This document shows positions 3,195 to 31,024 of a stretch of DNA of 64,000 nucleotides, in pieces (the first letter of the stretch is position 1; each line of letters opens with the position of its first letter). Where the stretch lies: NCBI GenBank assembly GCA_017554145.1, contig JAFZIZ010000018.1:1-64000 (forward strand), written 5' to 3'. Below the pieces are notes generated by a model. That model was given only the letters and a program-made list of their open reading frames with translations. It searched no databases and was not told where the DNA came from. Source of the stretch: Prevotella sp. (GTDB taxonomy: Bacteria; Bacteroidota; Bacteroidia; Bacteroidales; Bacteroidaceae). The position numbers and the translations under genes are program-made.

Positions 3195-3265
3195 TGGGGT
3201 ATGGTGTAATGGTAACACTACAGATTCTGGTCCTGTCATTCTTGGTTCGAGTCCGAGTACCCCAA
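3195..3265 (+). tRNA. tRNA-Gln (anticodon CTG)
   Basis: The acceptor stem pairs 3195-3201 with 3258-3264 (TGGGGTA/TACCCCA) with discriminator A at 3265. The anticodon loop TTCTGGT places CTG at positions 34-36, and the T arm contains TTCGAGT. CCA is not encoded. The gene is the integration target of the neighbouring element; its last 12 bases belong to the 13-bp repeat also found at 31012, so the left junction keeps the tRNA complete. Confidence 0.95.
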
Positions 3266-3266
3266 C
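3254..3266. other. attL core, 13-bp direct repeat in the tRNA-Gln 3' end
   Basis: CGAGTACCCCAAC occurs here and again at 31012-31024. Bases either side differ, so the identity is exactly 13 bp. The position at a tRNA 3' end and the integrase gene beside the distal copy are the standard arrangement for tyrosine-integrase insertion. Confidence 0.88.
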
Positions 3267-3277
3267 AGATTAAAAAG

Positions 3278-3311
3278 CCAACCACTTGATTATCAGGTGG
3301 TTGGTTTTCTT
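3278..3311 (+). terminator. Terminator immediately inside attL
   Basis: CCAACCAC (3278-3285) pairs with GTGGTTGG (3297-3304), with a further TGA/TCA pairing after one mismatch, then a T-rich tail. It lies inside the element, so the element supplies a terminator for the tRNA it interrupts. The probable original chromosomal terminator lies past attR at 31034-31070. Confidence 0.75.
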
Positions 3312-3320
3312 TTGTGGGTG

Positions 3321-3341
3321 TTTTTCGCGTCGGATTCGCGT
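3321..3341. promoter_or_regulatory. Arm-type integrase site, left end
   Basis: TTTTTCGCGTCG (3321-3332) and ATTCGCGT (3334-3341) recur at the right end: TTTTTCGCGTCG at 30872-30883, its inverse at 30842-30853, and ATTCGCGT at 30863-30870. A 12-base perfect match near both att cores is what arm-type sites of a tyrosine integrase look like. Confidence 0.6.
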
Positions 3342-3672
3342 TAAGAGTTGGGAAACTCAAAGTTTTGTGATAAGTCTGAACCAAGAAAAAGAAATTGGGG
3401 ATGCAATTATTATCACAATAACTGCACCCCTTACGTTCTTATAAAATTACCATTACTGGCAATTCGGTTGCAAAGTTACGAAAAAAGTACGATAATCAAA
3501 ACTATTTGGCTCCAAATATTTATTTGGTTATAAATATTATAATGTATATGGTAATTATTGGAGGTTATTCTCAGATTCCGACATAGTTTGTCACCAAGTC
3601 TAATCATAAACGACTATCTTTGCATCATCTTTTCTGAATCACAGAAAAGGCTAAACTATAATAAGAAAGAAT
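3342..3672. other. Left-end intergenic region with a weak promoter
   Basis: About 330 bases without a credible gene. It contains an imperfect palindrome near 3397-3436 (GGGGATGCA facing TGCACCCC), an AT-rich stretch at 3490-3560, a possible -7 element TATCTTTG at 3615-3622 for the gene at 3673, and a small hairpin at about 3629-3648 (TTTTCTG/CAGAAAA) in the leader. Confidence 0.5.
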
Positions 3673-4191
3673 ATGGATGCAACAGAACTTAGCAAAACTT
3701 TGAGAGAAAGCGCACGTTCAAACGGACTGTGTGATCAATGGTATAATGAATGGAAAGATTCTTGCTCACCCAAGGAACTTGCAGCCAAAATGTTTAAGGG
3801 ATTGGACTTCGTTCTTAAACTTCATTGGCCATCCAACGACTTCATCAAAGAACATTTCAGCCTCGACTTCCGTAGAGAGGTCAATGTATTCGTTGACGAT
3901 AGTCATAGCACACTCAATCCAAAGCAAAGCCTTATTCTGGGAAAGTCGGAGGTCACGGCTCGATTCAATGGTGCAAGTCATGGCAGTATCTATGTCCGCG
4001 ACTACTCCAGACTTACAGTGACGGCAAAGAACCGTAGTTTTGTTATCATCCACCTCTATGACAATGCGACTGTCAGCGTCAAACAATTCGACAAAGCAGA
4101 GATAGTTGTCATTAAACACTCACACGATGTAACTGTCAATGCCGACGAAAGCATCAAAGTACGTGAGGAATACGACTATTTAGAAAAATGA
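3673..4191 (+). CDS. Beta-solenoid-like element protein (paralogue of the 12270 gene)
   Basis: 172 residues with no family I can name. The N-terminal half is helical and aromatic-rich (WYNEW, LKLHWPS). The C-terminal half, from about residue 85, is a run of short strands with a V/I at every second position and small or acidic turn residues, such as SIYVRD, RLTVTAK, ATVSV, AEIVVI and DVTVNAD, like a right- or left-handed beta-solenoid. The protein at 12270-13061 has the same two-part layout and the same phrases (VxIYxD, TVRDxSxLT, VVIKHxxxVTxN), so they are probably paralogues. It lies alone between attL and the convergent tape-measure gene. No signal peptide. Function unknown. Confidence 0.75.
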   Translation: MDATELSKTLRESARSNGLCDQWYNEWKDSCSPKELAAKMFKGLDFVLKLHWPSNDFIKEHFSLDFRREVNVFVDDSHSTLNPKQSLILGKSEVTARFNGASHGSIYVRDYSRLTVTAKNRSFVIIHLYDNATVSVKQFDKAEIVVIKHSHDVTVNADESIKVREEYDYLEK

Positions 4192-4316: not shown

Positions 4317-4325
4317 ATATAAAAA

Positions 4326-4390: not shown

Positions 4391-7300
4391 TCACTTTATA
4401 CTTATTTGTTCAATGCCATTTGCAGCACGGTCAATATGGTCACTCATGGACTTTATGGCTTCAAATAGCGCACCGTCACCCCGTTCAATCATTCTTACAA
4501 GTGCTTGTGTGTTGTCGTGGATTCCTGCAACATGGTTGCTCATTCCTGAGATTTGCTCGATATAGTCACGCCAATATGTCTGTACAAACTCCTTGTATTG
4601 TGATTCCTGAAGGATTCTCATTATTGACAAATCCTGACGGGCTGCATTTACATACCCTGCAAGCAGGCCACTCGTTTCCTCAGACGTACCCTGAACACTA
4701 CTACTGAGAGTATTTGCACTGTCATTCATTACAGAAAGTCCGGCATTGTTCAAGCCTCTCTCGAAAGCGTTCATAAACTCCAAAGCTGCCGTGATAGTCT
4801 GCTCACCCTCACCGCCTTTGCCAAAGAAGTTTGTGATGGTAGATGTGACTGCTGCCATACTACTCTTCGGGTCTTTAGCATTGAACACGCCCTTGGTTCC
4901 TTTCTCAACGCTACCAAACAGTTTCTCTTCGAGATTGGCAAACATTGGTTCAAGAATAGCCATTTGCATCATCTTGTTCATCACCTGCTGTAAGATATGG
5001 GTAACAGTGTCTTTGTATGCTTTTGCGGCACTCTCACCATTCTCGAAAGCAGTAGAGAGACCATCGGAAAGCTGATCAGCCCAACCCTTGATGTCAATAT
5101 CCCACAACTCTTTCGCCAAGTCTTCGGAGAAATAATGAATCTGCTCGTCAAGTTCGGCTATCTTCTTCTTGAACTCCAATAATGCCTCGTCTGAAGAGTC
5201 TTTCTTATCATCCTCTTCATTATACATGTTGACGTAATCCTGACGCTCTTTTTCGAGGGCTGCAAGTTCCTGTGCATAGCCAGATGCACCAGAGCCAGTA
5301 GTGTAGAACTCACGCATGGCGTTACTTGCTGCATCACCACCTTTGTACGTCTTTGCAAAATAACGACGTAGAGCACCTGTGTCATAGCCTAACGTGCGAC
5401 CGCGAAGGGATTTGATAACCTCGGTATTGGCTTCCAAAGCAGCAACGTTACGCTGCAAAGCCTCGATGTGGTTCTGACGTTTCTTGTCATGTCCTTTGGC
5501 AAAGCCGGTTATCCAACCAGTGAACGAGCCAACGACACCAGAGATAACACCTCCGGCATCACCATTCTTCAACGAATCCCAACCCTTTGCAGCACTACTA
5601 CTGGCAGAAGAGAAAGAACTGAAGAAGGTGTTCGCGTCTTCCCAAGAATCGCTCTCTGTGTCATAGCCAAGGGCAGTGTACATTTCACGAATCTGCTGGA
5701 AAGCATCATTGAAGCCTTGAACAAGGTTGTCGATACCGTGAACAATCATGTCGATAATGGCAACACACTCCATGCCACCCTCACCCATAGCTTCCATACC
5801 CTCACCCATCTGCATCATGGATTGGGCTGCATCACTGTCTTTGAAAGCCTGCGCAATCTGTTGCTGGTCGGAAGACGTGTCAAGAATCTTTTGAGCATCC
5901 TGATATTTCTGCGCGCCCTCTTCCTGCATGGATTTACCACGCTTGATCATATTCTCAAAGATGCCGTTCAAACCATTCTTCATGTAGGACTGGAAATAAC
6001 TGTCTTGTTTATCCAGTTCTCTCATCCGTTTATTGATAGCGGAAATTTTGTCAGAGTATTCCTTTGCCGTGATTGCACCTGTCTTCAGGGCTTCATTGAG
6101 TTTCTGTTTTAGAGTGTTGGCAAAAGTTTGTAGTTCTGCCTTGGCCTTGATGAAGGAATCGCCAAACAGTTTCTTGTAGTCAGCACTCAGTTCCATAATC
6201 TTCAACTGCGCACTGGCAGTATTCCTTGATATGGCACTGCTTTTTTCAGCCTCTGTCAGTTTTGAGTTCTTGCTGATAAGTTCATTCTGATATGCAAGTT
6301 CACCGTTTATCTGAGCAATCTGCGTAGCATAGTCTTTGGCGTTCTTTATCGCGTTCTCGTAGGCAGTGGCACTTTCCTTTTCTATTTTCAGGCGATTCTC
6401 CTGCCAGGCATCCCAAATCTTATAGATGGCACTATCCTTGCCAAACTTCTTTACTTCGCTTTCGGACATGGCAAAGATTTGGTCAGGCGTATATTGGTTG
6501 CCTACCTTCTTCATTTCTTCCTGCATCTTGTCTTTCAGCCAGTCGGAATAAGATGTGTTCTGAACCACACCGGCTATTCTGGCAGCAAAATCGGGATCAC
6601 CTGTCAGTTGCAACCATTTCTTGTAAGTATCATAGTTCTCACCTACAATCCTTTCGAGACGTTCAAGTTCACTGACAGCGAAAGAAATATCTTCCTTAAA
6701 TTTGCGTAATGACTCTGCGCTTTTCTTCGACCCAAGTCCTTCTACGAAAACTTTCCTTTCCTCAGTCTTCGACCCAATCTTCTTTGCAGCCTCATTCAGA
6801 CTTGCATCAAAGTCATTCGGATTGGTGAAGTAACTCCATAACGGTGCAAAGTCACCCTCGGCTTTCAACTTCGATTCAGCCTGCGCCCGCGTCATTAGCT
6901 TTTCAAGCTGTGCCAACTCCTGCCTATACTTTTCCAGAAGTTGTATGCGCTTTCTCCATAACTCCAGTTCCTTGTCAGCCTTTGCCGTATTCTTGTCTCG
7001 GAAAGTCTTACCACCGCTATTAGGATCAGAGAGGGAAATGCCAGTAGCGGCATTGAATCCCATTGCATCATTCAGTTTCGTAGCATAGGAATCCCAATCA
7101 GCAAGCATATTCTCAAAGATGGTTGCATCCTTACCCGGATTCTCTTTCTTCCACTGATTGACAAGTGCTGTCCTTTGTGTAAGTCCAAGTTCCTTCATAC
7201 CACCGCTAACGTCAACACCCATCTTTATCATCAATGGCTTAACATTGTTGAAATAGTCCTGTGCTGATTTGTAGTCTTGGCGAATCTTACTGATAACGTC

Positions 7301-10300
7301 ACCAAAGTTGGTAGCGGTCTTTATGTCAATGTGCCAGTCGTGACCAACCAAATCTTTCAATGACTGTTCCATAGCATTGATTCTGGCGGCGGCTTCGACC
7401 GTCTTCACGTCAAGTTGAATGCCAAACTTTTCACTCGCAAGTTTCTTCACGCTCTCACGAATGTCTTCGGTGGCATTATCGGCTTTGCTGACAGTTTCAG
7501 CCAGAGCCAGTGCAATAGCCTGCTTCTGTGACTCAGAGAGGTTCTTGAAGTCCCAACCTGCCTCAGTGAGTTTTGCTTTCAGACTGTTAGCCCATTTGGT
7601 TGCATCAGCATCCATTTCCTCAAAGGCACTCTTCATCATCCAAGCATACTTATCGGGGCCATCAGCACCAAGATAACCACCACCAGAGCCGTGGAAGACG
7701 TGACCAAGTGCCTTACGCTCGTATTTGGTCATACCTTCCCTTGCATCCTCAAAGGCTTTGACGGCATCGGTGTACTTGTCTTGATTCTCGACCAACATCT
7801 TCAACTGCTCGGCTTCTGTGAGGTTGCGTTTCTCATTTTTCACCATAGCGGCATTAGCCACTTTCAAAGCATCGGCAAACGTCTTCTCACTACGGGCTGC
7901 AGTAAGTGCCGTGTCAATGCTCTGCGAGTGCTTAACCGTAAGTTCTGTAATGGAATCGTTGTATTTCTTAACGGCATTGGAATAGTCATTGATATTGGTG
8001 ATGAAACTATCATTGAACCAACCGCCATTAGTCGCATTCTCAGCATATTCAATGGCACTGCTAACCTGTTTGAGATAGACGTAAGCCTCAGCCGTTTGGG
8101 TTACAGACTTAGCGAGAATGTCATATTGCTCTGCAACACTTCTGACATTGCCTTTATCGTCTTTGAATGACTCATTGAGTATGCGGTTAGGAGTGGCGGC
8201 ATATTCACGGATAAACTGAGTCCACTTGTCTATTTGAGCCATCATGTCCTGAGTTGACATTTCTGCCGACGGCTTATAAGAGAATTTGCCATTGAGAATA
8301 TCCTTAACGTCACCAATCTCAACTTCAACGTCGTTGACCTTGAAAGTAAGTCCAGTGGCTTCCATCATTGAACGTATATTCTTGACACCCTCCAAGGCAC
8401 GGTTGAATAAGTCATCGTTCAACTGCTTTGCACGGTCAACCTCGATCTTGTTACGCTGCCATAGTTCCATGACACCTGCAAGCAAGGCGAACAAAGCCAT
8501 CTGAGGATTCAGGAACAAACTCTTCATAGCTGCTCCCAACTTCACAAAGCCCATACTCAAACCATTCACTACACCAGTCATAGCACCATAGGTACGGACG
8601 CTATTCACGGCTGCGATTCCTGCACTCTTCTCAGCCTTTGTCAAGTCAGAGAGAATGATTGCTTGTCTGGCTTGAGCCTTAGAGGTCTTACCAAGAGCAA
8701 CCTGACGTGCAAGGTCTTCCGTTGTCTGTCTGCGTTCTGACAATGCAAGGGCATTACCGAAAACTATCTGCTGTCTGGTTGTGGCAATGCGGAGTTTCTG
8801 AGCGTCGTTAAGTTGTCGTGACAATCCTATGCGACGGCCAATCCATGACTGAGCGAGTCTTTCACTGGCAGTCCACTTATGGGTTGTGGCTATCATGGCA
8901 TTTTCAGCGAGAGTAATGTCACGATAACTTCTGGCAAGGCGCAAACTGGCAATTTCTGCCCTCTGATATGCTTTGATACCGTTCATTACTGCGATGGCAT
9001 TAGCACCAAGCAATGAGTTGACAAGAGCCATATAGGTCTTAACCGCTCCAAATGCGACAATACCAGAGCCGACAATGGTAAACAGTTCCTCCCAATGCCG
9101 TGACAGAGTAGTGAGAATGGCTGCAAGGTCTTTCAGTCCGCTACCGACACCACTTTCTGCAATCTCATTGAACATGATCTCGTAGGAGTCACGGAGATTC
9201 TTGAACTTAGCATTAAGAGCCTGTGACATTGTTTCCTGTGCCTCAAAGAACGGGCCACCTTGATTCGTCATGTCTTTCAGGACATTCAGAACATCGTCAT
9301 AGCCAATCTCTTTTCGGGAAACCATCTTACGAATCTGCGACGTGGTTACACCGAACTTATCTGCCAATCTCTGTAACAATGGAACATTGGCCATGGAGAA
9401 TTGACGCAAGGTATAACCAGTAAGAGCCGTCTCGGAACGGACGTGACCCAAAGCCAATGCCAAACGGCTTACATCAGTGCCAGTTGCAGCGGATATGTCT
9501 GCCAAACGCTTCGTCATATCATACAACTCACTGTATTCAAAGCCAAAGGCACTGAGTTGCTTTGTCATAGCATCAAGTTCAGTAACTCCAAATGGTGACT
9601 TGATAGCCAGATTCTTCACCTTAGAGAAAAGATCAGTGGCATGAGCCGTGTCACCAAGTATTGCACCGATGCTAAGACGCTGCTGTTCAAGTTTACCGCC
9701 TTTCTCGATGATATTGTCTATAAACGACTTTGCACCCCATACACTGAGGTATTGAGCCGCCATACTTCGTAAGTCCTGTAACGTCTGAGACTGACCATGA
9801 AGTGCCGATGTACTTTGGTTGATAGCCTGTGCAAGTCGCATTTCCTCACCTGCAAGCCAAGTAACGGCTGCAACGGCTGAATTTCTCGCGGCAATGTTGA
9901 TTCGCGTTTCCTGAGTGTTCTGCTGAATCCGTTGTGTCAATGCTCGATAACCACCCTCGGCTTTCAACATCTGTGCCGTTGTGCCATCTTCCAAGTGACC
10001 GCCATTTCTGAAAATTGCCGTGAACTTCTGCATATAGCCGTCCATATCCTGCAACAGCTTATCCAGATTCGGAGTCTTCACACCAAGTTTGTTAGCCTGA
10101 GACTGCAAAGCCTGTAATGCAGCAATCTTTTTCTCCAAAACGGCAATCTGATAGACGGCTTCATTGACACTACGCTTGTCAACCAGTTTTTGCTTCTCTG
10201 CCGCCCGGCTCTGCTCTTGCTGTGTCCTCGACAATCCGTTAATCTCATTCCTCAACATACGTATAACCTGCATATATCGGTCGTACTGATTCATCATAGA

Positions 10301-10849
10301 CGTAACAGCACCAGTATTGCCAAGGAATTTCGGGTTACTCGTTAAACGGCTCATTTCCGACGCGAAAGACTTCATGTCGGCAATAACCTGCTTGTAACTG
10401 CTGACATCAACACCAAGACCCCTTGCATGGGCGCGATCCATCTGCAAGGCGTTCACAGACTTCATCATGTCGGCGTAGGCATCCACTACACGCTTCTTCG
10501 ACTTCTCGATTTCATCCGCTACTTTCTTGGATTCATCCGCTCCACGTCTCAGGGGCTTGGTGATGTTGTCAGCGACGTTACGTAGGCCGGAGCCATCGTT
10601 TAATTCTTTCAACTTCTTTTTCAGACCGTCAATCTCTCTCTGCATCCTTTGAATCTCAGATGAATCGCCAATCTTCAAATTCTTCAAAGTCCTAATGACT
10701 GACTCGGCTTCGCCAAAGTCAATCTTCAACTTGTAACCTTTGCCACCATTGTTGGCAAAGTTGTTGATCTTCTCAGTCCAGTCTTTTAACTTCTTGTCAA
10801 GTTGCTCGATAGAGACAGAGAACATCAGAGGTGATAAATTTTCTGCCAT
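4391..10849 (-). CDS. Phage tail tape-measure protein
   Basis: 2152 residues from ATG 10849; a start 30 bases upstream is possible but adds a basic stretch that looks untranslated. Tape-measure proteins set tail length and guide DNA exit in siphophages and myophages. Residues about 380-530 match the tape-measure N-terminal domain, with phrases RLSIGAILGDTAHA, SPFGVTELDAMTKQLSAFG, ADISAATGTD and LRQFSMANVP. Before this are 350 residues of helical coiled coil. A hydrophobic, Ala/Gly-rich segment lies near residues 600-760. The C-terminal 1000 residues alternate coiled coil with Gly/Ala-rich stretches. By the usual relation of length to residue number, a protein this long would specify a long tail. 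It is the only gene on its strand here and is separated from the other tail-like genes by about 10 kb, which is not normal phage order. Confidence 0.9.
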   Translation of the reverse strand: MAENLSPLMFSVSIEQLDKKLKDWTEKINNFANNGGKGYKLKIDFGEAESVIRTLKNLKIGDSSEIQRMQREIDGLKKKLKELNDGSGLRNVADNITKPLRRGADESKKVADEIEKSKKRVVDAYADMMKSVNALQMDRAHARGLGVDVSSYKQVIADMKSFASEMSRLTSNPKFLGNTGAVTSMMNQYDRYMQVIRMLRNEINGLSRTQQEQSRAAEKQKLVDKRSVNEAVYQIAVLEKKIAALQALQSQANKLGVKTPNLDKLLQDMDGYMQKFTAIFRNGGHLEDGTTAQMLKAEGGYRALTQRIQQNTQETRINIAARNSAVAAVTWLAGEEMRLAQAINQSTSALHGQSQTLQDLRSMAAQYLSVWGAKSFIDNIIEKGGKLEQQRLSIGAILGDTAHATDLFSKVKNLAIKSPFGVTELDAMTKQLSAFGFEYSELYDMTKRLADISAATGTDVSRLALALGHVRSETALTGYTLRQFSMANVPLLQRLADKFGVTTSQIRKMVSRKEIGYDDVLNVLKDMTNQGGPFFEAQETMSQALNAKFKNLRDSYEIMFNEIAESGVGSGLKDLAAILTTLSRHWEELFTIVGSGIVAFGAVKTYMALVNSLLGANAIAVMNGIKAYQRAEIASLRLARSYRDITLAENAMIATTHKWTASERLAQSWIGRRIGLSRQLNDAQKLRIATTRQQIVFGNALALSERRQTTEDLARQVALGKTSKAQARQAIILSDLTKAEKSAGIAAVNSVRTYGAMTGVVNGLSMGFVKLGAAMKSLFLNPQMALFALLAGVMELWQRNKIEVDRAKQLNDDLFNRALEGVKNIRSMMEATGLTFKVNDVEVEIGDVKDILNGKFSYKPSAEMSTQDMMAQIDKWTQFIREYAATPNRILNESFKDDKGNVRSVAEQYDILAKSVTQTAEAYVYLKQVSSAIEYAENATNGGWFNDSFITNINDYSNAVKKYNDSITELTVKHSQSIDTALTAARSEKTFADALKVANAAMVKNEKRNLTEAEQLKMLVENQDKYTDAVKAFEDAREGMTKYERKALGHVFHGSGGGYLGADGPDKYAWMMKSAFEEMDADATKWANSLKAKLTEAGWDFKNLSESQKQAIALALAETVSKADNATEDIRESVKKLASEKFGIQLDVKTVEAAARINAMEQSLKDLVGHDWHIDIKTATNFGDVISKIRQDYKSAQDYFNNVKPLMIKMGVDVSGGMKELGLTQRTALVNQWKKENPGKDATIFENMLADWDSYATKLNDAMGFNAATGISLSDPNSGGKTFRDKNTAKADKELELWRKRIQLLEKYRQELAQLEKLMTRAQAESKLKAEGDFAPLWSYFTNPNDFDASLNEAAKKIGSKTEERKVFVEGLGSKKSAESLRKFKEDISFAVSELERLERIVGENYDTYKKWLQLTGDPDFAARIAGVVQNTSYSDWLKDKMQEEMKKVGNQYTPDQIFAMSESEVKKFGKDSAIYKIWDAWQENRLKIEKESATAYENAIKNAKDYATQIAQINGELAYQNELISKNSKLTEAEKSSAISRNTASAQLKIMELSADYKKLFGDSFIKAKAELQTFANTLKQKLNEALKTGAITAKEYSDKISAINKRMRELDKQDSYFQSYMKNGLNGIFENMIKRGKSMQEEGAQKYQDAQKILDTSSDQQQIAQAFKDSDAAQSMMQMGEGMEAMGEGGMECVAIIDMIVHGIDNLVQGFNDAFQQIREMYTALGYDTESDSWEDANTFFSSFSSASSSAAKGWDSLKNGDAGGVISGVVGSFTGWITGFAKGHDKKRQNHIEALQRNVAALEANTEVIKSLRGRTLGYDTGALRRYFAKTYKGGDAASNAMREFYTTGSGASGYAQELAALEKERQDYVNMYNEEDDKKDSSDEALLEFKKKIAELDEQIHYFSEDLAKELWDIDIKGWADQLSDGLSTAFENGESAAKAYKDTVTHILQQVMNKMMQMAILEPMFANLEEKLFGSVEKGTKGVFNAKDPKSSMAAVTSTITNFFGKGGEGEQTITAALEFMNAFERGLNNAGLSVMNDSANTLSSSVQGTSEETSGLLAGYVNAARQDLSIMRILQESQYKEFVQTYWRDYIEQISGMSNHVAGIHDNTQALVRMIERGDGALFEAIKSMSDHIDRAANGIEQISIK

Positions 10850-11021
10850 AAGTCTTCTTTTTTTGTGTTGGTATGGCAAAATTTGTAAAATTATTTTACA
10901 AAACCTCTCAAAAATTGTGGGAATCTTTAAAATATCGAAGTAAAAAGTTGAATTATCACCAGTTTTCAGTAATTTACCACCAAAAACAAGGTATTGTAAT
11001 AATAATTTACTACCTTTGCAT

Positions 11022-13270: not shown

Positions 13271-13284
13271 TATATATATAATAT

Positions 13285-16861: not shown

Positions 16862-16886
16862 AATATTCTTGAATTTTAGTCTGAAA

Positions 16887-21824: not shown

Positions 21825-21833
21825 TTTCATGTG

Positions 21834-21872
21834 TGTGGGTGGGGAACGGCAACTTTGCCCTACCTACCCACA
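21834..21872 (+). promoter_or_regulatory. Stem-loop in the operon leader between 21594 and 21890
   Basis: TGTGGGT (21834-21840) pairs with ACCCACA (21866-21872), with further G-C pairs inside and a GGCA/TGCC apex. It is followed by A rather than T, so it is not a classic terminator. Likely an RNA processing or stability element just ahead of ATG 21890. Confidence 0.5.
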
Positions 21873-21889
21873 TTAAAAAAGATTGCTTT

Positions 21890-22249: not shown

Positions 22250-22251
22250 GT

Positions 22252-22999: not shown

Positions 23000-23440
23000 A
23001 TGAAGAGGATTCAAAAAAAAGAGTTAGAAGGCAAGGATTGCTTTTCTATCATCATAAGTGATATTGAATATTACTTTGAATACAATGCGCTGTTTGAAAA
23101 TATGCCGAGGTTCTTGCAGATTGAAAGCGGTAATACAGAAATTCGCATAAACTATGAAGTTAGTGAAATGGTGAATGGTTCTATTTCCAATGTAATAATT
23201 GAAAATGGACTTTTAGCTGAAATCATCGTTAGCACGAATCGCAATACAAATAAGCGAGGTTTCAAGGCTAAAACAATTGAGATTCTAAAAGTAATAGAGA
23301 ATGCGATAGGGAAAGCTGTGAATTACAATTGCTTCAGTCAAGACTTTGTGAAGTCAACTGATAGCGAGATCGAAACAATTGCAACTACCATTACGAGACA
23401 TAAAAACAGAATAAGTAAACAAGAAAAAATTACAGAATAA
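23000..23440 (+). CDS. Hypothetical protein, paralogue of the next gene's N-terminus
   Basis: 146 residues. Aligns along its length with residues 1-150 of the 23442 protein: GKDCFSI..IEYYFEYNA..NMPR versus GKECYSI..TDYYFLYSA..NMPK, then INYEVSE versus IHYELSD, and TIEILKVIENAI versus SVIIKSINNAI. A tandem duplication of one gene, with the second copy gaining extra domains. Function unknown. Confidence 0.65.
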   Translation: MKRIQKKELEGKDCFSIIISDIEYYFEYNALFENMPRFLQIESGNTEIRINYEVSEMVNGSISNVIIENGLLAEIIVSTNRNTNKRGFKAKTIEILKVIENAIGKAVNYNCFSQDFVKSTDSEIETIATTITRHKNRISKQEKITE

Positions 23441-23441
23441 T

Positions 23442-24350
23442 ATGGAACAGACAACTATTACACAAACGCAAGCACAGGGAAAGGAGTGTTATTCCATTTC
23501 CATTGATCAGACTGACTATTATTTCTTGTATAGTGCTGCTGTTGGCAATATGCCGAAGATTATTCAGGTGACAATAGACGGCGTGGATATTCCCATTCAC
23601 TATGAGTTAAGTGACGTTGTTAATGATGCAACGGGTTACGCTCTTGGTTTGGAAGAAAACCGCCTCTCTGGTGTCTTAGTCTGCATCGGAAAGTCTATCA
23701 ATACGAAAGACTTTCACGAAAAGACTTCTGTCATTATCAAAAGCATCAATAACGCTATTGAGCAGGCTATTGATCATGGCAGCTTTAACCATGAATGGGA
23801 AAAGCCTACGGATGCAGAGGTAGGAACTATGTCGGTGGAGATTGCAAGTCACTTCTACCGTATCAATCTTGGTGCAAGAACCAGTAGCACGTCTCGTTAT
23901 GCAGGTAAGCCGAATAACCGACGTTATCCGCATACTTGTGTCATTACTCATGTTGACAACAACGACCCGATGGCTGATGATCCCATCGAAGACGACCCGA
24001 TGGAAGATGACCCAATGGCAGACGATCCAATGGCTGATGATTCTGGTGACAATGGCAATAGTGGCGAAGGTGGAAGTGACGACGAAAGCGGACGTGTTGT
24101 TACAGTATATGATGGAATTTGCCGTAGTGAGGCAAAGCACACCACGAATGCAACAGGTAAAGTGATAGTCTCAACTCGTCGTGTTTCCATTCCTCTGACT
24201 ATTGACGATTGGGAGAAACGTGAGTACCAACCAGTCGCAGGTGACAGAATCAAGGTCTGCAAAGGTAGCGTAGCCGTTGAATGGGGGCAGATATTGGACT
24301 TCATGCCTGGCACTATGGGTACGACCATCTTGTTTGAGTTTGTAGCGTAA
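23442..24350 (+). CDS. Duplicated-domain protein with acidic repeats and a connector-like C-terminus
   Basis: 302 residues in three parts: about residues 1-150 paralogous to the 23000 protein; about 165-215 an acidic linker with repeated DDPMA/E units and then a Gly/Ser-rich stretch; about 220-302 a compact beta domain starting VYDGICRSEAKH and containing TRRVSIPLTID, GDRIKVC and GQILDF. The last part resembles phage head-tail stopper/head-closure domains in its strand pattern, and the next gene resembles a tail-completion protein. This is a weak structural argument. It starts one base after the previous gene stops. Confidence 0.6.
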   Translation: MEQTTITQTQAQGKECYSISIDQTDYYFLYSAAVGNMPKIIQVTIDGVDIPIHYELSDVVNDATGYALGLEENRLSGVLVCIGKSINTKDFHEKTSVIIKSINNAIEQAIDHGSFNHEWEKPTDAEVGTMSVEIASHFYRINLGARTSSTSRYAGKPNNRRYPHTCVITHVDNNDPMADDPIEDDPMEDDPMADDPMADDSGDNGNSGEGGSDDESGRVVTVYDGICRSEAKHTTNATGKVIVSTRRVSIPLTIDDWEKREYQPVAGDRIKVCKGSVAVEWGQILDFMPGTMGTTILFEFVA

Positions 24351-24355: not shown

Positions 24356-24898
24356 ATGGCAAGGAATAGGGCAGTCATAACTAAAGCGGTTGAGGACTAC
24401 AAGAACCGTGTTATCATACCGATAATGGAGGCACGTTTGAAGTCATGGTGCAGCCAGATTCTTGACGCTTCTATATTGGCACGTCAACGGAATCCGAAAG
24501 CGCATAACTTCACAGGAAACCTTCTTAACTCAATTGTCGTTTGTCTCTACAAGAACCGTGAGCCAGTAATGGCTTGGTTTGCATCGGACAGAGTGCCGGA
24601 AGCCATTGTGCCAAAGATGAAGAAAAGGCAGCGTAAGCGTGTTTTCTTCAGTCGCGATTACGATGGTCAGGAAAGCGCATATCTGCCAACGGTAGAAACA
24701 AACGGTGGTTGGGGTCGTGATGATGCTCAGAACTTCTTTGAAACCTATGTGCCGAAAGGTAACAACCTCTTTGACGTTGTGATTGCCTATCCTGTTGAAT
24801 ATGCTGATTGGGTAGAAGCGCAAAGGGCTACAACTGGCATCCTCAATGCCTATCAGTATGTGGAACGTACAGGTGTGAGATTTATGAGACTTAAATAG
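24356..24898 (+). CDS. HK97-gp10-like tail completion protein (probable)
   Basis: 180 residues. A basic N-terminal helix (KAVEDYKNRVIIPIMEARLK) is followed by FTGNLLNSIV and, late, VVIAYPVEYADWVEAQRATT. The order of helix, G-N-L-x-x-S-I and A-x-P-V-x-Y-A-x-x-V-E resembles HK97 gp10 or related tail-completion/terminator proteins, where the last motif is usually A-x-Y-A-x-x-V-E. In phages this caps the tail tube for joining to the head. Preceded by the connector-like protein, five bases apart. Confidence 0.6.
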   Translation: MARNRAVITKAVEDYKNRVIIPIMEARLKSWCSQILDASILARQRNPKAHNFTGNLLNSIVVCLYKNREPVMAWFASDRVPEAIVPKMKKRQRKRVFFSRDYDGQESAYLPTVETNGGWGRDDAQNFFETYVPKGNNLFDVVIAYPVEYADWVEAQRATTGILNAYQYVERTGVRFMRLK

Positions 24899-25131: not shown

Positions 25132-25582
25132 GCGATTAAGAAATGCAAACAATGGTGATGGTAGTTTCAGTTTCCGTCTCAAGTACACACCCGGCTCTGA
25201 CTTGAAAAAGCCATTGCAGAAGTGGTTGAGAATGGAACTGGAACACGGCTGTTACTGCCTACACTCTGAAGAAGAGTTTCGTGACTATATGCGCGAGAAT
25301 ATCTTTGGCTATCTGCCAGATTGGTTTGCCCGTGAAGTTACGGAATGGGCTTTTATGGTTGCATACAGAGAGGGCTATGTTTGCCGTAGTCAGCATGATC
25401 AGAACGCGCAAGTTCCGATGTTCTATATACCACGTAGTTTACTTGACCTCAAATGTGGGCCACATCTGAAAGTCAGTGACCAATACGCAAAAGACTTCGA
25501 TATGATTCCTGGTGTATCGGCTGACTTCGAGGAACAAAAACCAATCACAAAACTTGAAGACAAAAAGAACATTGAATTATGA
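25121..25582 (+). CDS. Hypothetical element protein
   Basis: 153 residues, mixed fold, rich in Trp, Tyr and Phe (DWFAREVTEWAFMVAYREGY). The first codons overlap the previous gene and the last four bases (ATGA) overlap the next. This is where a tail-terminator or tube gene would sit in a phage, but nothing specific is visible. Confidence 0.6.
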   Translation: MLIKRLRNANNGDGSFSFRLKYTPGSDLKKPLQKWLRMELEHGCYCLHSEEEFRDYMRENIFGYLPDWFAREVTEWAFMVAYREGYVCRSQHDQNAQVPMFYIPRSLLDLKCGPHLKVSDQYAKDFDMIPGVSADFEEQKPITKLEDKKNIEL

Positions 25583-26094
25583 TAGAAGAAAAAGAAGAGG
25601 TGCAAAAAGCACAGACAGAAGAAGTCGATGGTCTCACATATACCATCGTGAAGATACCACGTACCAATAAAGTATATAAGGTGCGGACTCTCACCAATAA
25701 CCAACTCGAAGACATTGCCAGACTCCTTTTCAGGGATGGTGAGCAGAAGACAACAGAAGAAACAATTCTCAAAGATACTAAGATTTCGGCAAAGGCTGCA
25801 GCAATCTATCTCACTCCTGATTATTGGAAACGTAAGTTGACGTATTGGTTTCGATGGAGGTGGTTCTACTACATCCGGCAGTATGACAACGCTCAGTTGC
25901 AACCAGTCATTTCGGCTGGCTTTGGCTCAACACCGTATATCGACTTTCTTAAAACGATGTCATTGCTTGCTAATCAGAAAGACACGCAAATGCGTATGAC
26001 CGTTAAGGAAGCCGAAAAGATTTTGCAGGAATTGTCTTCAAAGGCCAACACCAAAGATGGTAATGATTCCAAGCAAAACGATAATTCGCAATAG
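25579..26094 (+). CDS. Hypothetical protein, possible tail-assembly chaperone
   Basis: 171 residues. Starts with a strand-rich portion (YTIVKIPRTNKVYKVRTLTN), then helices and a basic aromatic stretch (WKRKLTYWFRWRWFYYIRQY), and an acidic Asn/Asp/Lys tail. Size and position at the end of the tail-type operon fit a tail-assembly chaperone, normally encoded just before the tape measure, but the tape measure lies about 10 kb away across the operator region. Last gene before a terminator. Inference from position only. Confidence 0.45.
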   Translation: MIEEKEEVQKAQTEEVDGLTYTIVKIPRTNKVYKVRTLTNNQLEDIARLLFRDGEQKTTEETILKDTKISAKAAAIYLTPDYWKRKLTYWFRWRWFYYIRQYDNAQLQPVISAGFGSTPYIDFLKTMSLLANQKDTQMRMTVKEAEKILQELSSKANTKDGNDSKQNDNSQ

Positions 26095-26561: not shown

Positions 26562-26591
26562 AAAGGGGAATCGGTTAGCCGATTCCCCTTT
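26562..26591. terminator. Perfect bidirectional terminator
   Basis: AAAGGGGAATCGG (26562-26574) and CCGATTCCCCTTT (26579-26591) with loop TTAG; serves both convergent genes. Confidence 0.9.
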
Positions 26592-27160
26592 TACACATAT
26601 TCAAACATTAGTCCTTTGACTGGTCTGTTTCGTCGCATATTGTAGTAGAAAGAATTGGGAGGAATCTGTGGGTAGGTTTCAAACAGTTGGGTAACGGAAT
26701 CGAATAACTCTCCAGTGGTAGTACACAGAATCTTCTTTCGATAATTCGGCAACTCCTTACCTTTTCTGCTATTCACAAGAATCTCACTATCTTCAACTTC
26801 GCAAAGCACGAAGTGGAAGCCTCTTGTAGGATTTTTATTCTTGATGCAGTTCGTAATAGTCATGTAGGGAATACCAGTCTTGTCAGAGCAATCTCTTACT
26901 GACTGGAAAATCTGGTCAGTCTCTACACACTTAACAAACTTGTTCCAAGTCTTTTTAGCCTTTGTCTCAGGATTTGTTAGTAGATTGGTGTTGACAGATT
27001 CTTCCTCGTTGATCTCTGCAAGCAGGAAAGTTTCTATCTCACAACCTCTTGAACGGGCAACAGCAGCCATTGTCTTAACTTCATCTTCGCTGAAGCAATA
27101 GATAAGTTCTGTTACTTTCCCGTTCTTGTAGAAACTCGCAAGGAATGTCTTTTCTGTCAT
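26591..27160 (-). CDS. Protein with two tandem NUMOD1-like modules
   Basis: 189 residues. Two repeats near residues 75-120 and 143-189 (CVETDQIFQSVRDCSDKTGI with GFHFVL, and CTTTGELFDSVTQLFETY with GLMFEYV) follow the NUMOD1 pattern of strand, S-V helix and a closing G-x-x-F strand. NUMOD1 is a small DNA-binding module seen in homing endonucleases and mobile elements; no nuclease domain is present. It lies at the distal end of the integration operon, 8 bases from its neighbour. Confidence 0.65.
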   Translation of the reverse strand: MTEKTFLASFYKNGKVTELIYCFSEDEVKTMAAVARSRGCEIETFLLAEINEEESVNTNLLTNPETKAKKTWNKFVKCVETDQIFQSVRDCSDKTGIPYMTITNCIKNKNPTRGFHFVLCEVEDSEILVNSRKGKELPNYRKKILCTTTGELFDSVTQLFETYPQIPPNSFYYNMRRNRPVKGLMFEYV

Positions 27161-27168: not shown

Positions 27169-27858
27169 CTATTCTTCAACACCGTATTTAGCCCTTAGTT
27201 GGCGCATTTCACGCTCAAAAGCCTCATTTTTTAACTTCATATCCTTATCGTAGTTACTGCCATGAAGAGCCTCGTATGCTTCTTTAGCATCTGGGTACGC
27301 TTTTTCAACAGCCTTACTAATCAAAGAAGCCATTTCGTCAGGTCTTACTCTCTCACCTACATCTTCATGCAGAACCTCGTTGAAATTTGCGAACAAAGGA
27401 CATTGACTGCATTTGATGGGAAAGTAGAAGTTGATGGCATCGGTCTCTTCCTGTTCTGGCTCTACGGTATTTCTCTGCCTTATCTCGTCGTATCTGAGGA
27501 AAAGGTCAGCACGCTCTTTTGAACCCTTTGGAGCGGCTTTTGCAGAGCGTAGTATTTCCTTTGCCACCTCGTCACCATCAATAAGTTCAACCTCTTCCAG
27601 TTCAACAGGGATGGCACTTTCTTTCACTCTGCTTATTCTGTCAGCAAGGAGTTTCTTGAATTTGGCAGAACCAAACTTCTTGTCTATGATTACCCTTTGT
27701 TGTTTCTCAGGGAGGTTTAACTTCAACTCTTCAGGGAATAACAGCATATAAGCATCAATATCCTTATAGCCGAGTGCAATCAAATCAGCGCAAGCAAGTA
27801 ACGCTGCATCTACATTGAGTTTCTTCAACTCTCTTCTAAATTCAATTGAGTGTTCCAT
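27169..27858 (-). CDS. Hypothetical protein, possible small-terminase-like
   Basis: 229 residues, helical. The first 60 residues (CADLIALGYKDIDAYMLLFP with later GSAKFKKLL) look like a helix-turn-helix start of the sort seen in phage small terminases, followed by coiled coil (GSKERADLFLRYDEIRQRN) and CSQCPLF, a Cys pair. Phage satellites commonly encode their own small terminase to redirect packaging, so such a role would fit, but the similarity is only to the general style of that family. Two bases from the next gene upstream. Confidence 0.45.
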   Translation of the reverse strand: MEHSIEFRRELKKLNVDAALLACADLIALGYKDIDAYMLLFPEELKLNLPEKQQRVIIDKKFGSAKFKKLLADRISRVKESAIPVELEEVELIDGDEVAKEILRSAKAAPKGSKERADLFLRYDEIRQRNTVEPEQEETDAINFYFPIKCSQCPLFANFNEVLHEDVGERVRPDEMASLISKAVEKAYPDAKEAYEALHGSNYDKDMKLKNEAFEREMRQLRAKYGVEE

Positions 27859-28022: not shown

Positions 28023-28316
28023 TTATTTGTTACCTTTTATTCTGTCTATGTCGGCTTGTTTGTAGAAGGGTTTGCGCCCAATCTTTACAGGTATGAGATA
28101 ACCGCTCTTTGACCATCGCCACAGAGTGTTTCTCTTCACATTGAGAATCTTTGCCGTATCATCAGCACCAACTAATTCATTGTCATGCTCATTGTCGGCA
28201 ACAGCTTGCTTCTCTGCCTCTCGCTCGTCGATAATGTGATTGAAAAGTTCTTTGAGGTCATTCAGGCTAACGACCATCAAGACATTCTCTTTTGATTGTA
28301 ATATATCCGTAATCAT
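28023..28316 (-). CDS. Excisionase-like HTH protein
   Basis: 97 residues from ATG 28316; a longer frame to 28370 lacks support. The C-terminal half (DDTAKILNVKRNTLWRWSKS, then GYLIPVKIGRKPFYKQADID) is the helix-turn-helix and wing typical of proteins encoded beside integrases in Bacteroidetes elements. The N-terminal half is a charged helix. Located in the integrase operon, so a recombination directionality factor or operon regulator is likely. Confidence 0.8.
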   Translation of the reverse strand: MITDILQSKENVLMVVSLNDLKELFNHIIDEREAEKQAVADNEHDNELVGADDTAKILNVKRNTLWRWSKSGYLIPVKIGRKPFYKQADIDRIKGNK

Positions 28317-28436
28317 ATTGGATTGGTTTTGATTTTTCCGCGAAATTAGAGATAAATCAAACCCAATCAAAAGAAAAGAGGTGTATGCAAGTTTTCATAC
28401 ACTCACATACACCCCTATACAAGTTTTAGCCCTTTT

Positions 28437-29264
28437 TCAACTGAAAAAGACTATCTTATTAGCCCGGTCAAGGGCATTCAGGTTTTTATCGTTCATGTAG
28501 TTGTGAATGGCAGTCCATGACCCGATTCTTTCAAACTCAGACTCATATTCTTTCTGTGTCGGCAACCTCGTAATATAGTTCTCTTGTAAGGCACGTAGAA
28601 TGACACAACCAACATCTGCACCGCTTCGACCGTCAATAAGCACATGAAGACGTTTCAGGAGCCTTTCCTTATCATCGTATTGGATAATATCAGAGAAAGT
28701 TTGCGATTTTTTATTCTTTGCAACTGTGATAGTTTCTATTTCTGATTCTTCAGAATCGCTTTCATCAAATACAAGGTCGTATGTCTCTGCCAACGACTGC
28801 ACTTCACGTATGAGATAGTCGAACTTGTCACGCAGGCAAACAGCAATCAACCAGACAAACATTTTGATATCCTTACAACTCGTCATGTACTGTTCCCATC
28901 CTCCTATTTTCATCCAGTCTTTCGGGGCTTTAACATTCCAGTCCGATGCACCGAATAGAAGAGGCAAACAATTACACCTTTTGGCAATCTTTCCAAAAAA
29001 CACTTTGAAGATAAGTTTGTTATTGTCGTAGTCACCAGTCAAATGACTCTCTATTTCATTCACAACACTATCTGTGTTGAGGCTCATGCAAAGGTCGTAT
29101 GCAAACTTAACATCGTTCTTATCCAGTTGTTTCGGTCTTTTACGATCCAATGGAGTTTCTTCACCCTTATTGTTGACGATACAGAGATTGCCACAATACT
29201 TTATTGCAAGCATCGTCAACTCAAAAGATGAATCTATCAGCCGTTGTGTATTATCCCATTTCAT
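28437..29264 (-). CDS. Hypothetical protein in the integration operon
   Basis: 275 residues, helical, no membrane segment. Contains LDRKRPKQLDKND and a late FERIGSWTAIHNYMNDKNLN. Proteins of this kind next to integrases in Bacteroides elements are known only as uncharacterised families (possibly DUF6043; not certain). It begins 14 bases after the integrase stop. A helper role in integration or maintenance is a guess. Confidence 0.6.
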   Translation of the reverse strand: MKWDNTQRLIDSSFELTMLAIKYCGNLCIVNNKGEETPLDRKRPKQLDKNDVKFAYDLCMSLNTDSVVNEIESHLTGDYDNNKLIFKVFFGKIAKRCNCLPLLFGASDWNVKAPKDWMKIGGWEQYMTSCKDIKMFVWLIAVCLRDKFDYLIREVQSLAETYDLVFDESDSEESEIETITVAKNKKSQTFSDIIQYDDKERLLKRLHVLIDGRSGADVGCVILRALQENYITRLPTQKEYESEFERIGSWTAIHNYMNDKNLNALDRANKIVFFS

Positions 29265-29278
29265 ACTAAGCCCTCCTA

Positions 29279-30799
29279 TTACAAAAGATTGATTACATTG
29301 AATAGCGTTTCGTCCTCAATATTACGATAACGCTTGAAAGCCTTTGAGCCTTCGACGTGACCGCTCATTTTACCGATAATGTTTGGGTCTGAAACTTTGA
29401 AGTAGGCATTGCCGACAAAAGTACGACGTGCCAAGTGAGAGGATGCAATTTCGTTCAAAGGCTTAAACTCCGGCTCGCCTGTCTTTGGATTCCTTATCTC
29501 GACCTTGCGCGTTATCCCTGCCATACCGAATATGACTTTGATAGCATCGTTGTAACGCTGGCCAGTGATGCAAGGGAACAAACGGCCTTGGGTATCAACT
29601 CCACGATATTTCTCAATCAGTTCCAGTGCTTTCGGATGCAATGGTACGCGGGCTTGGAATGGTGTACTACCCTCGTCTTTGGTCTTATGAGGTGTATAAA
29701 CAAGAATGCCGCCATGAATGTTGTCGTAGTTGAGTTTCAGCAAGTCACCGACACGGCATCCTATCAGACATTGGAACACAAAAATGTCACGTTGTTCAAG
29801 TAATGTCTTTATCGGCATCCTCGCAGGTTTCTTCTCTTCTTTGCTCATGGTTTCCCATTTGGCTTCGAGGTCGGCATCAGCAATGATATTTCTCTCGTCA
29901 ATGGTTATGTAATACGGAGTGCCTACCTTTTCCACTCCAACCTTAACACCCTCAAATGGTCGGTTGGTTGTGTAACCTCTTTCATAGAAATAGGTAAAGA
30001 GCGACTTCAAGCGTGTCCGCATCTTGATAACAGTGTTCTCACCTCTGACTTCAATTTTGCTTCGACCAGGCTTAACGCTATTGGGGTAGGCTTTCAGTAG
30101 TTTGGCAAAGAGTTTCTTATGGTCTTCTGCCAATGTGCTTTCGTTACGCAGGTAGTCGGAAAAGTCTTCTATGTCTTCTCTGGTAACGTGGTTGATGTCG
30201 AAAGAGAAATACTTTCGGTTGCTGTCTGTAGCCCTAACAAATCCCTCATAACGGGAAATGGCACGTAGTAGAACGTGATAGACTCTGGCATGAGATTCTG
30301 CCAAACCTTTCTTCACGATGTACTCTTCAGCCATTTCGTAGAATGTCCGTTCTGTCTTGTTGCATACTTCTGGGTGGTTGAAGTTATCAATGATATTCTT
30401 CAGCCAGTCACCGCAAATCTCTGTCTTAGGTGCTTTCTCGTAAAACTCGATGATAACCTTCATCAAGTTCTCAATTCGCGTCGCCTGTTGCTTATGCCAT
30501 TTGACTTCTGGTGTTTCCACTCTGTGATTACTCACACAAATCACACCTCTATCAAGCAGAAAATAACCTTTGCTTTCCGCTTTCTTCTTGGTGATGGTGA
30601 TCAACTTCGGTGGAACACTAATGTTGAAGTCTTCGGTCTTCTTGCGGTCAATGTACCACTCGAAGAAGTCAGAGGAAATAAACACATCAGTCTTTGCATA
30701 GAGGTTGAAATGCTTACCTTCATGGAATCTGATAAGAACCTCCTGCCTACCAGTTTCTTTTTGGACTTTGGTAGAAAGTCTCAACTCGATTTTTGCCAT
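29279..30799 (-). CDS. int: Integrase (tyrosine recombinase, SAM-like arm domain)
   Basis: 506 residues from ATG 30799. The N-terminal 95 residues form the small Bacteroidetes integrase arm-type domain (KVQKETGRQEVLIRFHEGKH). A SAM-like core-binding domain spans about 130-290. The catalytic domain has Arg in IGCRVGD (about 347), HLARR (His about 453, Arg about 456), GHVEG (about 479) and Tyr in KRYRNIED (about 490). It ends about 1.7 kb from attR and its promoter contains arm-type sites, so it is the integrase that inserted the element in tRNA-Gln. Confidence 0.93.
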   Translation of the reverse strand: MAKIELRLSTKVQKETGRQEVLIRFHEGKHFNLYAKTDVFISSDFFEWYIDRKKTEDFNISVPPKLITITKKKAESKGYFLLDRGVICVSNHRVETPEVKWHKQQATRIENLMKVIIEFYEKAPKTEICGDWLKNIIDNFNHPEVCNKTERTFYEMAEEYIVKKGLAESHARVYHVLLRAISRYEGFVRATDSNRKYFSFDINHVTREDIEDFSDYLRNESTLAEDHKKLFAKLLKAYPNSVKPGRSKIEVRGENTVIKMRTRLKSLFTYFYERGYTTNRPFEGVKVGVEKVGTPYYITIDERNIIADADLEAKWETMSKEEKKPARMPIKTLLEQRDIFVFQCLIGCRVGDLLKLNYDNIHGGILVYTPHKTKDEGSTPFQARVPLHPKALELIEKYRGVDTQGRLFPCITGQRYNDAIKVIFGMAGITRKVEIRNPKTGEPEFKPLNEIASSHLARRTFVGNAYFKVSDPNIIGKMSGHVEGSKAFKRYRNIEDETLFNVINLL

Positions 30800-30826
30800 A
30801 ATGTTTACTTTTATAAGAACGTGCTG

Positions 30827-30883
30827 CAAAGGTACAAAAAACGACGCGAAAAACCTCCAAAAATTCGCGTCTTTTTCGCGTCG
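30827..30883. promoter_or_regulatory. Integrase promoter with three arm-type sites
   Basis: Minus-strand TACCTTTG at 30827-30834. Sites TTTTTCGCGTCG inverted at 30842-30853, ATTCGCGT at 30863-30870 and TTTTTCGCGTCG at 30872-30883 share the motif found at 3321. The site at 30842 lies in the spacer of the promoter, so integrase could repress its own transcription. Confidence 0.6.
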
Positions 30884-31011
30884 AACATCAAATTTAACGA
30901 GTTTTAATCAAATCTAATGCAATAATACGACATTGTGAAACGTTAATAAATAAAGGTGGTTTGGCTCTTTCGGGTGGAACTCGTTCTTTTTCAAAATCAC
31001 AATGGATTAGG

Positions 31012-31024
31012 CGAGTACCCCAAC
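31012..31024. other. attR core, 13-bp direct repeat
   Basis: CGAGTACCCCAAC, matching the last bases of tRNA-Gln at 3254-3266; the rest of the tRNA is absent here, as expected for the distal junction. Confidence 0.88.

Follow-up and report, generated by a model that had tools for sequence, protein, structure and literature searches.

The 64,000-nucleotide window analysed here (positions 1 to 64,000 of contig JAFZIZ010000018.1, Prevotella sp. assembly GCA_017554145.1) carries a 27.8 kb element at positions 3254-31024, integrated in a tRNA-Gln gene of a ruminant-gut Prevotella, which encodes a giant tape-measure protein (TMP) and a tail-completion protein and in which no gene for a capsid, portal, large terminase (TerL) or tail tube is recognised. 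Judged by its genes, the element is probably a satellite of a new Bacteroidota family which builds chimeric tails together with parts of a helper phage. An earlier note on this DNA had proposed a satellite that supplies or alters tails, a tail-like-particle island or a strongly reduced prophage. The anatomy supports the first of these well, with a family of six elements, a shared core, attachment (att) sites, a circular form, and TMP and tail-completion genes in all six, and the function is a reading of those genes.

Tail genes without head, packaging-motor or tube genes

The TMP frame is uninterrupted, with 2162 codons from a TTG or 2152 from an ATG, and matches the Pfam family TMP_3 (1.4e-18) and phrog_9959 (2.1e-43); over long stretches the protein is 30-42% identical to phage TMPs, and the 2152-residue tape measure described in the earlier note is thus confirmed. 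Scans of the 26 proteins of the main frames against PHROGs and Pfam, with E-values of up to 1 allowed and other small or overlapping frames left aside, gave no credible capsid, portal or TerL. Such names appear only at chance level, namely a Gp13-like major capsid at 0.096 (the 17497 protein), a 'head protein' at 0.29 (p358) and GpA_ATPase at 0.014 (a small helix-turn-helix (HTH) protein), all of them far under Pfam's cut-offs where such cut-offs exist. The same scans name no prohead protease or lysis gene, for which no dedicated profiles were used, and general library scans of the window copy gave no credible capsid of an unrelated type.

An iterated search restricted to phage loci supplied profiles of 17 phage genes, and six-frame translations of the window element and five relatives were searched with them. 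At E <= 1e-3, ten of the 17 have no match in any of the six elements: TerL, portal, MuF, scaffold, decoration, major capsid protein (MCP), adaptor, tail terminator, tail tube and hub. A complete prophage would be recognised by MCP, portal and TerL, each of which is found in none of the six. At the same threshold TMP and tail completion match in all six, the tail assembly chaperone (TAC) in three, q229 and the 172-aa gene in two each, and head closure and the distal 182-aa gene in one each. The profiles of the giant hub, the distal gene and the 172-aa gene are thin, resting on 4, 6 and 7 loci, respectively. Element (S_) profiles were made from the same elements and match there by construction, whereas the phage profiles were built without elements. 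As a control, LoVEphage was kept out of profile building, and 18 of 19 profiles matched it at E < 0.05, with decoration weak at 0.0015 and the 173-aa gene missed. A tail tube or terminator hidden in the operon was considered and rejected, since comparison of nine element with 15 phage families gave profile-profile probabilities of at most 7.3%, against 100% for TAC and 99.8% for head closure as controls. The absence of portal, major capsid and large terminase noted earlier is thus borne out by library scans and phage-built profiles alike. The broader claim that packaging genes are lacking holds for TerL and portal but not for q229, which is related to a gene of the phage packaging block.

Among 85 listed tail-completion loci, 75 also have MCP, adaptor, terminator or tube (72 have MCP) and ten have none of these, the latter including duplicates of the six elements. 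The 85 are a chosen list which leaves out L004-L007, L047-L049, L057, L061, L062 and the weak loci L134-L138; several are overlapping stretches of one contig, and each covers at most ~20.6 kb rather than a whole phage. The o196/267, o153 and p373 genes of the elements occur in none of the 75 phage loci and a p81-like gene occurs in two, and the o196/267 marker is likewise missing from ten large phage records and from three prophage-bearing genomes (G450, G495 and G516).

Tail genes without head genes would suit a tail-only particle of the tailocin kind or a gene transfer agent, but tube, terminator and hub are missing from all six elements (the hub profile coming from 4 loci), and the att sites and integrases are those of a mobile element. 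This makes such a particle extremely improbable, and the missing tube, terminator and hub make the island for tail-like particles suggested earlier unlikely.

A family of capsid-less elements with smaller relatives

Three routes of search gave five further capsid-less elements of 23.6-25.3 kb; with the window copy the lengths are 27.8, 24.3, 23.6, 24.2, 23.7 and 25.3 kb. G491 (locus L016) comes from viral contigs, G492, G493 and G494 come from a genome collection (records of uncultured Prevotellaceae bacterium RUG003 and RUG405 and of uncultured Prevotella sp. RUG063), and G517 from a search of the genus, where tail-completion matches occurred in 11 of 398 genomes. Six of these matches were strong and correspond to five elements, one being a near copy of the window's strain, and to a prophage in G516. 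Duplicates were dropped from the element counts: G745 equals G494 (16 kb identical), G822 equals G493 (18 kb identical), L139/G824 equals G493 (identical scores), and G539 and G496 represent the window's strain or a near copy (offset 391).

Four of the five further elements are integrated in Prevotella-group genomes, and all five integrated elements, including that of the window, have an integrase and an att pair of 13-17 bp. In the window the repeat is the 13-mer CGAGTACCCCAAC, which occurs on the plus strand only at 3254 and 31012, with the integrase gene beside the right copy, so that the ends given in the earlier note stand. G492 occupies the same tRNA-Gln gene with a 15-bp repeat, G493 a tRNA-Lys gene with 14 bp, and G494 the 3' end of a ccsA-like host gene with 16 bp (TGGTGGGGCATCAATT); the 17-bp pair of G517 is less certain, several repeats being present from which it was picked for its position. 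The G491 contig has identical 78-bp ends and therefore closes to a circle, of 23,683 bases, whose attP junction joins the TMP end to the integrase and agrees with the attL and attR of G494 apart from a single mismatch in the 16-bp core. Going by this junction, the circle is the excised form of a sister element. The metagenome that yielded G491 (3300014057) also yielded a 106-kb phage record of the related family described below, a co-occurrence which is no proof of pairing.

The core is not confined to large elements. The o196/267 marker occurs in 19 of the 398 genomes of the genus (11 of 175 good ones), a few at chance-like E-values; five weaker loci (G803, G693, G725, G736 and G652) were left unread, and four of these have E >= 5e-5 and may be due to chance. 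Ten further marker loci have an o196-like gene (the search criterion), eight an o153-like gene, four a p373-like gene and six a match to one of two integrase profiles, and 15 phage-module profiles have no match in any of the ten. Repeats of 15-29 bases bound six small elements of ~7.2, 7.7, 8.1, 8.5, 9.2 and 9.5 kb; two of the ten loci gave no good repeat pair and two, at contig ends, fell outside the test. The small elements use sites of the large ones, for example the tRNA-Lys and ccsA-like genes, and may be minimal satellites. 

Several observations concern these small relatives individually. The genome of the window contains a second, small element of ~8.1 kb beside tRNA-Val (G000:C38, ~48.7-56.8 kb, L235/L236) with no tail-gene match, its ends being a 21-bp pair in the tRNA gene chosen over a longer 30-bp pair nearby. 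Small elements of ~7-9.5 kb with parts of the o196/o153/p373 core lie in G661, G746, G602, G685 and G059 (L224-L240), and several carry a serine resolvase-type gene; a Resolvase domain was verified in G746 and in the large element G493, and the others were judged by eye. The small element in G636 (L234, 17662-19627) has a tmRNA gene nearby, which may be where it integrated.

A related phage family of the rumen

When the window TMP was used as query, four virus contigs from rumen or gut proved to encode TMPs ~30-40% identical to it, and LoVEphage and its relatives followed at 28%. With all 26 element proteins, tblastn finds the same set on each of the four contigs in the order of a phage late module, namely the C-terminal part of o302 (head closure), o180, o171, TMP and the 172-aa gene. 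The labels 'tail completion', 'head closure' and the like are positional, as they derive from this synteny and from the annotation of the LoVEphage-like PV4-TP1. A prophage in G450 and the phage contigs L013 and L014 add a q229 homologue beside TerL, portal and a MuF-like gene. In the prophage L062 both libraries, PHROGs and Pfam, name TerL and portal, and only PHROGs names MuF ('head morphogenesis', 4e-5).

Scanning IMG/VR with the capsid protein gave 54 loci of this family, of which seven lie on contigs 103-110 kb long, and among ten chosen large records eight measure 103-110 kb, one 96 kb and one 85 kb. The clustered lengths point to a phage of about 105 kb, which is a guess because completeness is not stated for the large records; one example is IMGVR_UViG_3300028832_000110, of 107 kb. 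When the L062 capsid protein was compared with a collection of named phages, all 30 matching records were below 60% identity (22.6-28.5% in the ten listed), so that the family has no close relative in the collection searched. The rumen phages of IMG/VR and LoVEphage thus share TMP, tail-completion, TAC, head-closure, TerS-like (small terminase-like) and 172-aa genes with the elements and, unlike them, possess head, packaging and full tail modules. The earlier note had allowed that close relatives might be full prophages of which this copy is a deleted version; full phages do contain relatives of the tail genes, but the elements form a family of their own and not one deleted copy.

Further features of the phages were observed in passing. 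The portal of L062 is SPP1-like, and the TMP frame of the family is open for up to ~3290 residues. The L062 TerL (3790-6435) is long at 881 aa and combines a weak Hom_end match with separate N- and C-side terminase matches, a pattern that might stem from an intein. The phage contigs L148 and L149, both with MCP, also carry a p81-like gene.

The link between q229 and packaging comes from this comparison, as its homologue (39-46% identity) follows TerL, portal and MuF in the related phages. The predicted model of q229 (pLDDT 76, pTM 0.37) has, as read by eye, a helical N-terminal part in an HTH-like arrangement. In a Foldseek search of BFVD the first rank is an uncharacterised protein (E 1.1e-4), and ranks 2, 4 and 6 are named terminase small subunits with E-values of 0.027, 0.088 and 0.32 and TM-scores of 0.27-0.43. 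The model has no PDB match at E <= 0.001, the sequence matches no family in the libraries, and the L062 homologue has no match among the named phages.

Selection on and exchange of the tail genes

The TMP frame is open in all six elements. Between G494 and G491, dN/dS is 0.12 for TMP (2092 codons), 0.095 for tail completion, 0.12 for the integrase and 0.11-0.21 for four other shared genes; only this pair was used because dS between the window and G492 is saturated or above 2. Satellite TMPs would be shorter than those of phages, with a median of 2104 (n = 6) against 2283 (n = 19; p = 0.04), but three short phage frames (1031, 1132 and 1493) may be split and the difference is too weak to claim. 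The satellite lengths are counted from supposed ATG starts, and those of G494, G491 and G517 are 10-23 residues under the first-start lengths.

A TMP tree from a 337-column region, with 38 rows after thinning of 62 and a long LoVEphage branch, rejects a single clade for the six element sequences (p-AU 3e-66). The window, G517, G494 and G491 fall in one group (97/90), where phage L149 lies nearest to G517; G493 joins three phages (100/96) and G492 stands apart. The tail-completion tree contains four changes of label between phage and element, at least two of them forced by well-supported branches, and groups G517 with the phages L148 and L176 (100/99, with an unsettled bootstrap). Together the trees imply that phages and elements traded tail genes on more than one occasion. 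On this sequence evidence the core would have stayed in place while the tail genes were exchanged, and the direction of each move is a matter of interpretation.

Grouping of tail genes with phage genes in more than one place is also what independent remnants of prophages from this phage family would give, each having retained its tail genes by chance, and the rearrangement of the window copy could be read likewise. Such an origin is distinctly improbable, as the o196/267, o153 and p373 core is not seen in phages, the same ten genes are missing from all six elements within a narrow range of sizes, TMP frames are open with dN/dS of 0.1-0.2 (G494 against G491), one element is found as a circular contig, and small relatives have the same core and no phage-module match. 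The strongly reduced prophage of the earlier note is held to be unlikely on the grounds of the shared core, the similar sizes and the purifying selection.

The TMP is a component of the path by which DNA is injected. The satellite TMP might therefore serve mainly to alter entry, widening or shifting the range of hosts, which is compatible with chimeric tails and would accord with the spread of element TMPs over several places of the phage tree; there is no hub match in any of the six elements, receptor-binding proteins not having been separately searched, and little probability is given to entry as the main role.

A proposed mechanism

It is proposed that the element excises and replicates when a siphophage-like helper, represented by the contigs of ~105 kb, infects or is induced. 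The TerS-like protein, where present, would steer the large terminase and portal of the helper to element DNA. Helper capsid, tail tube and terminator would be assembled with the TMP and tail-completion protein of the element, to which this copy would also contribute its chaperone and head-closure protein. Helper tubes would polymerise around the satellite's ruler and be closed by the satellite's neck part, giving a chimeric tail of which the satellite sets both length and neck. As an outcome, tail assembly would favour satellite DNA or would escape a block on the TMP of the helper. Since no head, motor or tube is recognised in it, the element is not expected to form particles by itself.

Several points weigh against this proposal. 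Particles and helper alike are deduced from genes. A search for the helper MCP in five element-bearing assemblies (G000, which is 83.5% complete, G492, G493, G494 and G496, with the genome of G517 left out) gave no match; the five are not all independent, G496 being the window's own strain or a near copy, and on this result the helper would have to come from elsewhere. The TMP gene lies apart from the remaining tail genes, and gene order differs between elements. A TerS-like gene was not found in four of six elements and TAC not in three, so that neither is essential to the proposed scheme, and q229 itself is a candidate small terminase whose identity follows from weak scores on a predicted model. 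One TerL-profile match occurs in G493, at an E-value of 0.016, weaker than the 1e-3 threshold. Phage L149 falls inside the TMP group of four elements, which leaves the direction of exchange unsettled.

The same genes can be read as an interference island, in which TMP, tail-completion protein and chaperone poison the tail assembly of the helper as dominant-negative forms or decoys, and which moves, if at all, in ordinary helper particles. Interference with tail assembly is a theme of phage defence in the extract of one report (PMC11364771), no helper-derived particle has been seen, and the small relatives of ~7-9.5 kb share the core with no tail-gene match. A full-length TMP of ~2000-2150 residues in all six elements, under purifying selection in the one pair measured, would be costly for a decoy, and the phage-inducible chromosomal island-like elements (PLEs) put TMP and chaperone to use in virions, according to the extract of the report on them (PMC12987554). 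An interference island is accordingly unlikely, though it retains some weight.

In a fuller form of the chimeric-tail proposal, Prevotella would harbour a two-tier satellite family, with small members of ~7-9.5 kb sharing the core and large members of 24-28 kb that have repeatedly exchanged TMP and tail completion with one phage family and make particles of satellite-set tail length and neck with helper head and tube. The chances of this being right or wrong are evenly balanced.

Comparison with known satellites

PLEs use a large serine recombinase, unlike the elements described here, which have tyrosine integrases, belong to another phylum and contain other genes, PLE gene content not having been directly compared. 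As far as the extract of their description goes, the PLE satellites of Vibrio cholerae encode a TMP, a chaperone and a baseplate-hub protein, the TMP enters virions, and most transfer is lost without it; the authors call them the first satellites known to manipulate tail assembly (Nature, March 2026; PMC12987554). Both are integrated elements of the satellite type with TMP and TAC (here six and three of six, respectively, the window copy having both). Other tail parts come from the helper, which is shown for PLE in the same extract (PMC12987554) and deduced here from genes. Unlike PLE, the elements have no baseplate-hub match (with a phage hub-like profile from 4 loci; PLE BhuB was not searched), the family adds tail completion, and this copy adds head-closure and TerS-like genes. 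The PLE helper is the contractile ICP1, whereas the presumed helper here is of a siphophage-like family.

Phage-inducible chromosomal islands (PICIs) and the Staphylococcus aureus pathogenicity islands (SaPIs), going by the part of the account used (PMC6092414), resemble the elements in being att-flanked and in having a tyrosine integrase, an excisionase-like gene and a repressor-like HTH gene, and in being smaller than the presumed helper; the TerS-like gene of some members is a candidate counterpart, with synteny in its favour, weak fold matches and no family match. TMP and neck genes are not mentioned for PICIs in that part (PMC6092414), and none of the families searched has a match to the core proteins of the present elements. 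The extract on PLEs mentions tmp genes in PLE-like elements and in some capsid-forming PICIs (cf-PICIs), so that a satellite with a TMP gene is a point of likeness (PMC12987554); cf-PICIs make their own capsids, whereas MCP is found in none of the six elements. A literature search on satellites gave no Bacteroidota satellite with tail genes among the matches listed, preprints not being covered.

Genes and setting of the window element

The features are collected in Table 1. Integrase, excisionase-like gene and repressor-like regulator are all present as judged by family matches, and both recombinases match tyrosine-integrase families, the second of these being one which the earlier note does not name.

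Table 1. Features of the window element and its integration site.
Feature	Position	Strand	Basis
tRNA-Gln (CTG), integration target; final 13 bases are attL (3254-3266)	3195..3266	+	tRNA call, repeat search
172-aa protein; 2/6 elements	3673..4191	+	homologue of gene directly after phage TMP (43-57%)
Tape-measure protein (TMP), 2152 aa from ATG at 10849; 6/6 elements	4391..10879	-	family match, profile
HD339, cargo; DUF5758 match and C-terminal HD-like region (latter by eye)	11233..12252	-	PHROGs/Pfam
p358, distant paralogue of 172-aa gene	12270..13346	-	homologue
p373 and p81, accessory core; 5/6 elements each	15818..17132	-	profile
Putative secreted protein, signal-like N terminus (by eye)	17497..18219	+	frame reading
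HTH94, Cro/C1-type repressor-like protein; 5/6 elements	18288..18572	-	family match, profile
YR275, second tyrosine recombinase, 31% to LoVEphage integrase	18799..19626	+	family match, homologue
o196 and o267, paralogous core proteins; 6/6 elements, absent from 10/10 large phage records	20156..21568	+	profile
o138 (21833-22249, o153 paralogue) and o243	21833..22983	+	homologue searches
o146, resembles N-terminal part of o302	23000..23440		by eye and joint alignment
o302, residues ~158-301 are head-closure protein; closure in 1/6 elements	23442..24350	+	homologue, profile
o180, tail-completion protein by synteny; 6/6 elements	24356..24898	+	43-77% to phage and element homologues
o153, core gene; 6/6 elements, 85% in G492, none in 75 phage loci	25121..25582	+	profile
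o171, tail assembly chaperone (TAC) by synteny; 3/6 elements	25579..26094	+	homologue of gene upstream of phage TMP (42-50%)
q189; 4/6 elements	26591..27160	-	profile (made from those four)
q229, candidate small terminase (TerS-like); 70% in G492	27169..27858	-	phage synteny, weak fold matches
q115, excisionase-like HTH_17 protein; relatives in other elements and several small ones	28023..28370	-	family match
q275; homologue (36%) adjoins integrase in G492	28437..29264	-	homologue
Tyrosine integrase, 516 aa; 75% to G492 integrase, sited in same tRNA-Gln	29279..30829	-	family and homologue matches
attR, 13-bp direct repeat of tRNA 3' end	31012..31024	+	repeat search

A known fold hidden among the element proteins was considered and rejected. 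The predicted o267 model (pLDDT 82, pTM 0.60, 8 sequences) is helical and has no PDB match at E <= 0.001, sequence profiles of three element families gave nothing credible against PDB sequences, and o267 has no match in the viral-contig scan or among named phages; a role in the capsid or in manipulation of the helper is only a guess from the model. p373 has no Pfam match and no match among plasmids, its relatives also occur in small elements, and an AAA_25 gene occurs in G492; that p373 and p81 act in replication is likewise a guess. For o243 no relative was found in 99 other genomes or in the viral-contig scan. A PADLOC search for defence genes, run at E <= 0.01 with ten of the 26 proteins, gave no match. 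In the stretch 23000-24350, o146 and the start of o302 look like two copies of one domain, the second copy being fused to the head-closure domain.

G+C is 0.37-0.47 within the element and about 0.49-0.53 in the flanks. A record 99.995% identical to the window over 20,540 bases (L057) belongs to Prevotella sp. isolate RGIG7649 from water-buffalo omasum. The assembly of the window (G000) is reported as 83.5% complete with 5% contamination, which is fitted by a second copy of rsfS (79%) at G000:C14:168797-169153. tRNA-Gln was found near rsfS in 23 of 29 loci of relatives examined, on opposite strands in all 23, unlike in the window, where both lie on the same strand; compared with G020, tRNA-Gln and element are jointly inverted between DUF349 and rsfS (window 3062-31157), an inversion which may be real or else a fault of assembly. 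Within the element, gene order shows the segment bounded by the HTH gene and q189 (18288-27160) in the opposite orientation to its counterpart in G492. The tail blocks on opposite strands described in the earlier note are indeed seen here, but the arrangement is special to this copy. YR275 lies inside the inverted late segment near one edge and is not at this place in the gene lists of the other elements; inversion of the segment by YR275 was considered and rejected, as no strong inverted repeats occur at the segment ends among the 25 of 39 pairs listed.

Significance

The analysis also points to a family of rumen phages without close named relatives in the collection searched, and the paired TMPs and neck proteins of phages and satellites are natural material for tests of tail length and of head-tail matching. 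If the proposal is true, parasitism by chimeric tails would have a second, independent origin in hosts other than Vibrio, and neck proteins would be a newly recognised level of control. Its occurrence in an unrelated family of another phylum, with TMPs spread over several places of the phage tree, would show control of the tail to be a general strategy.

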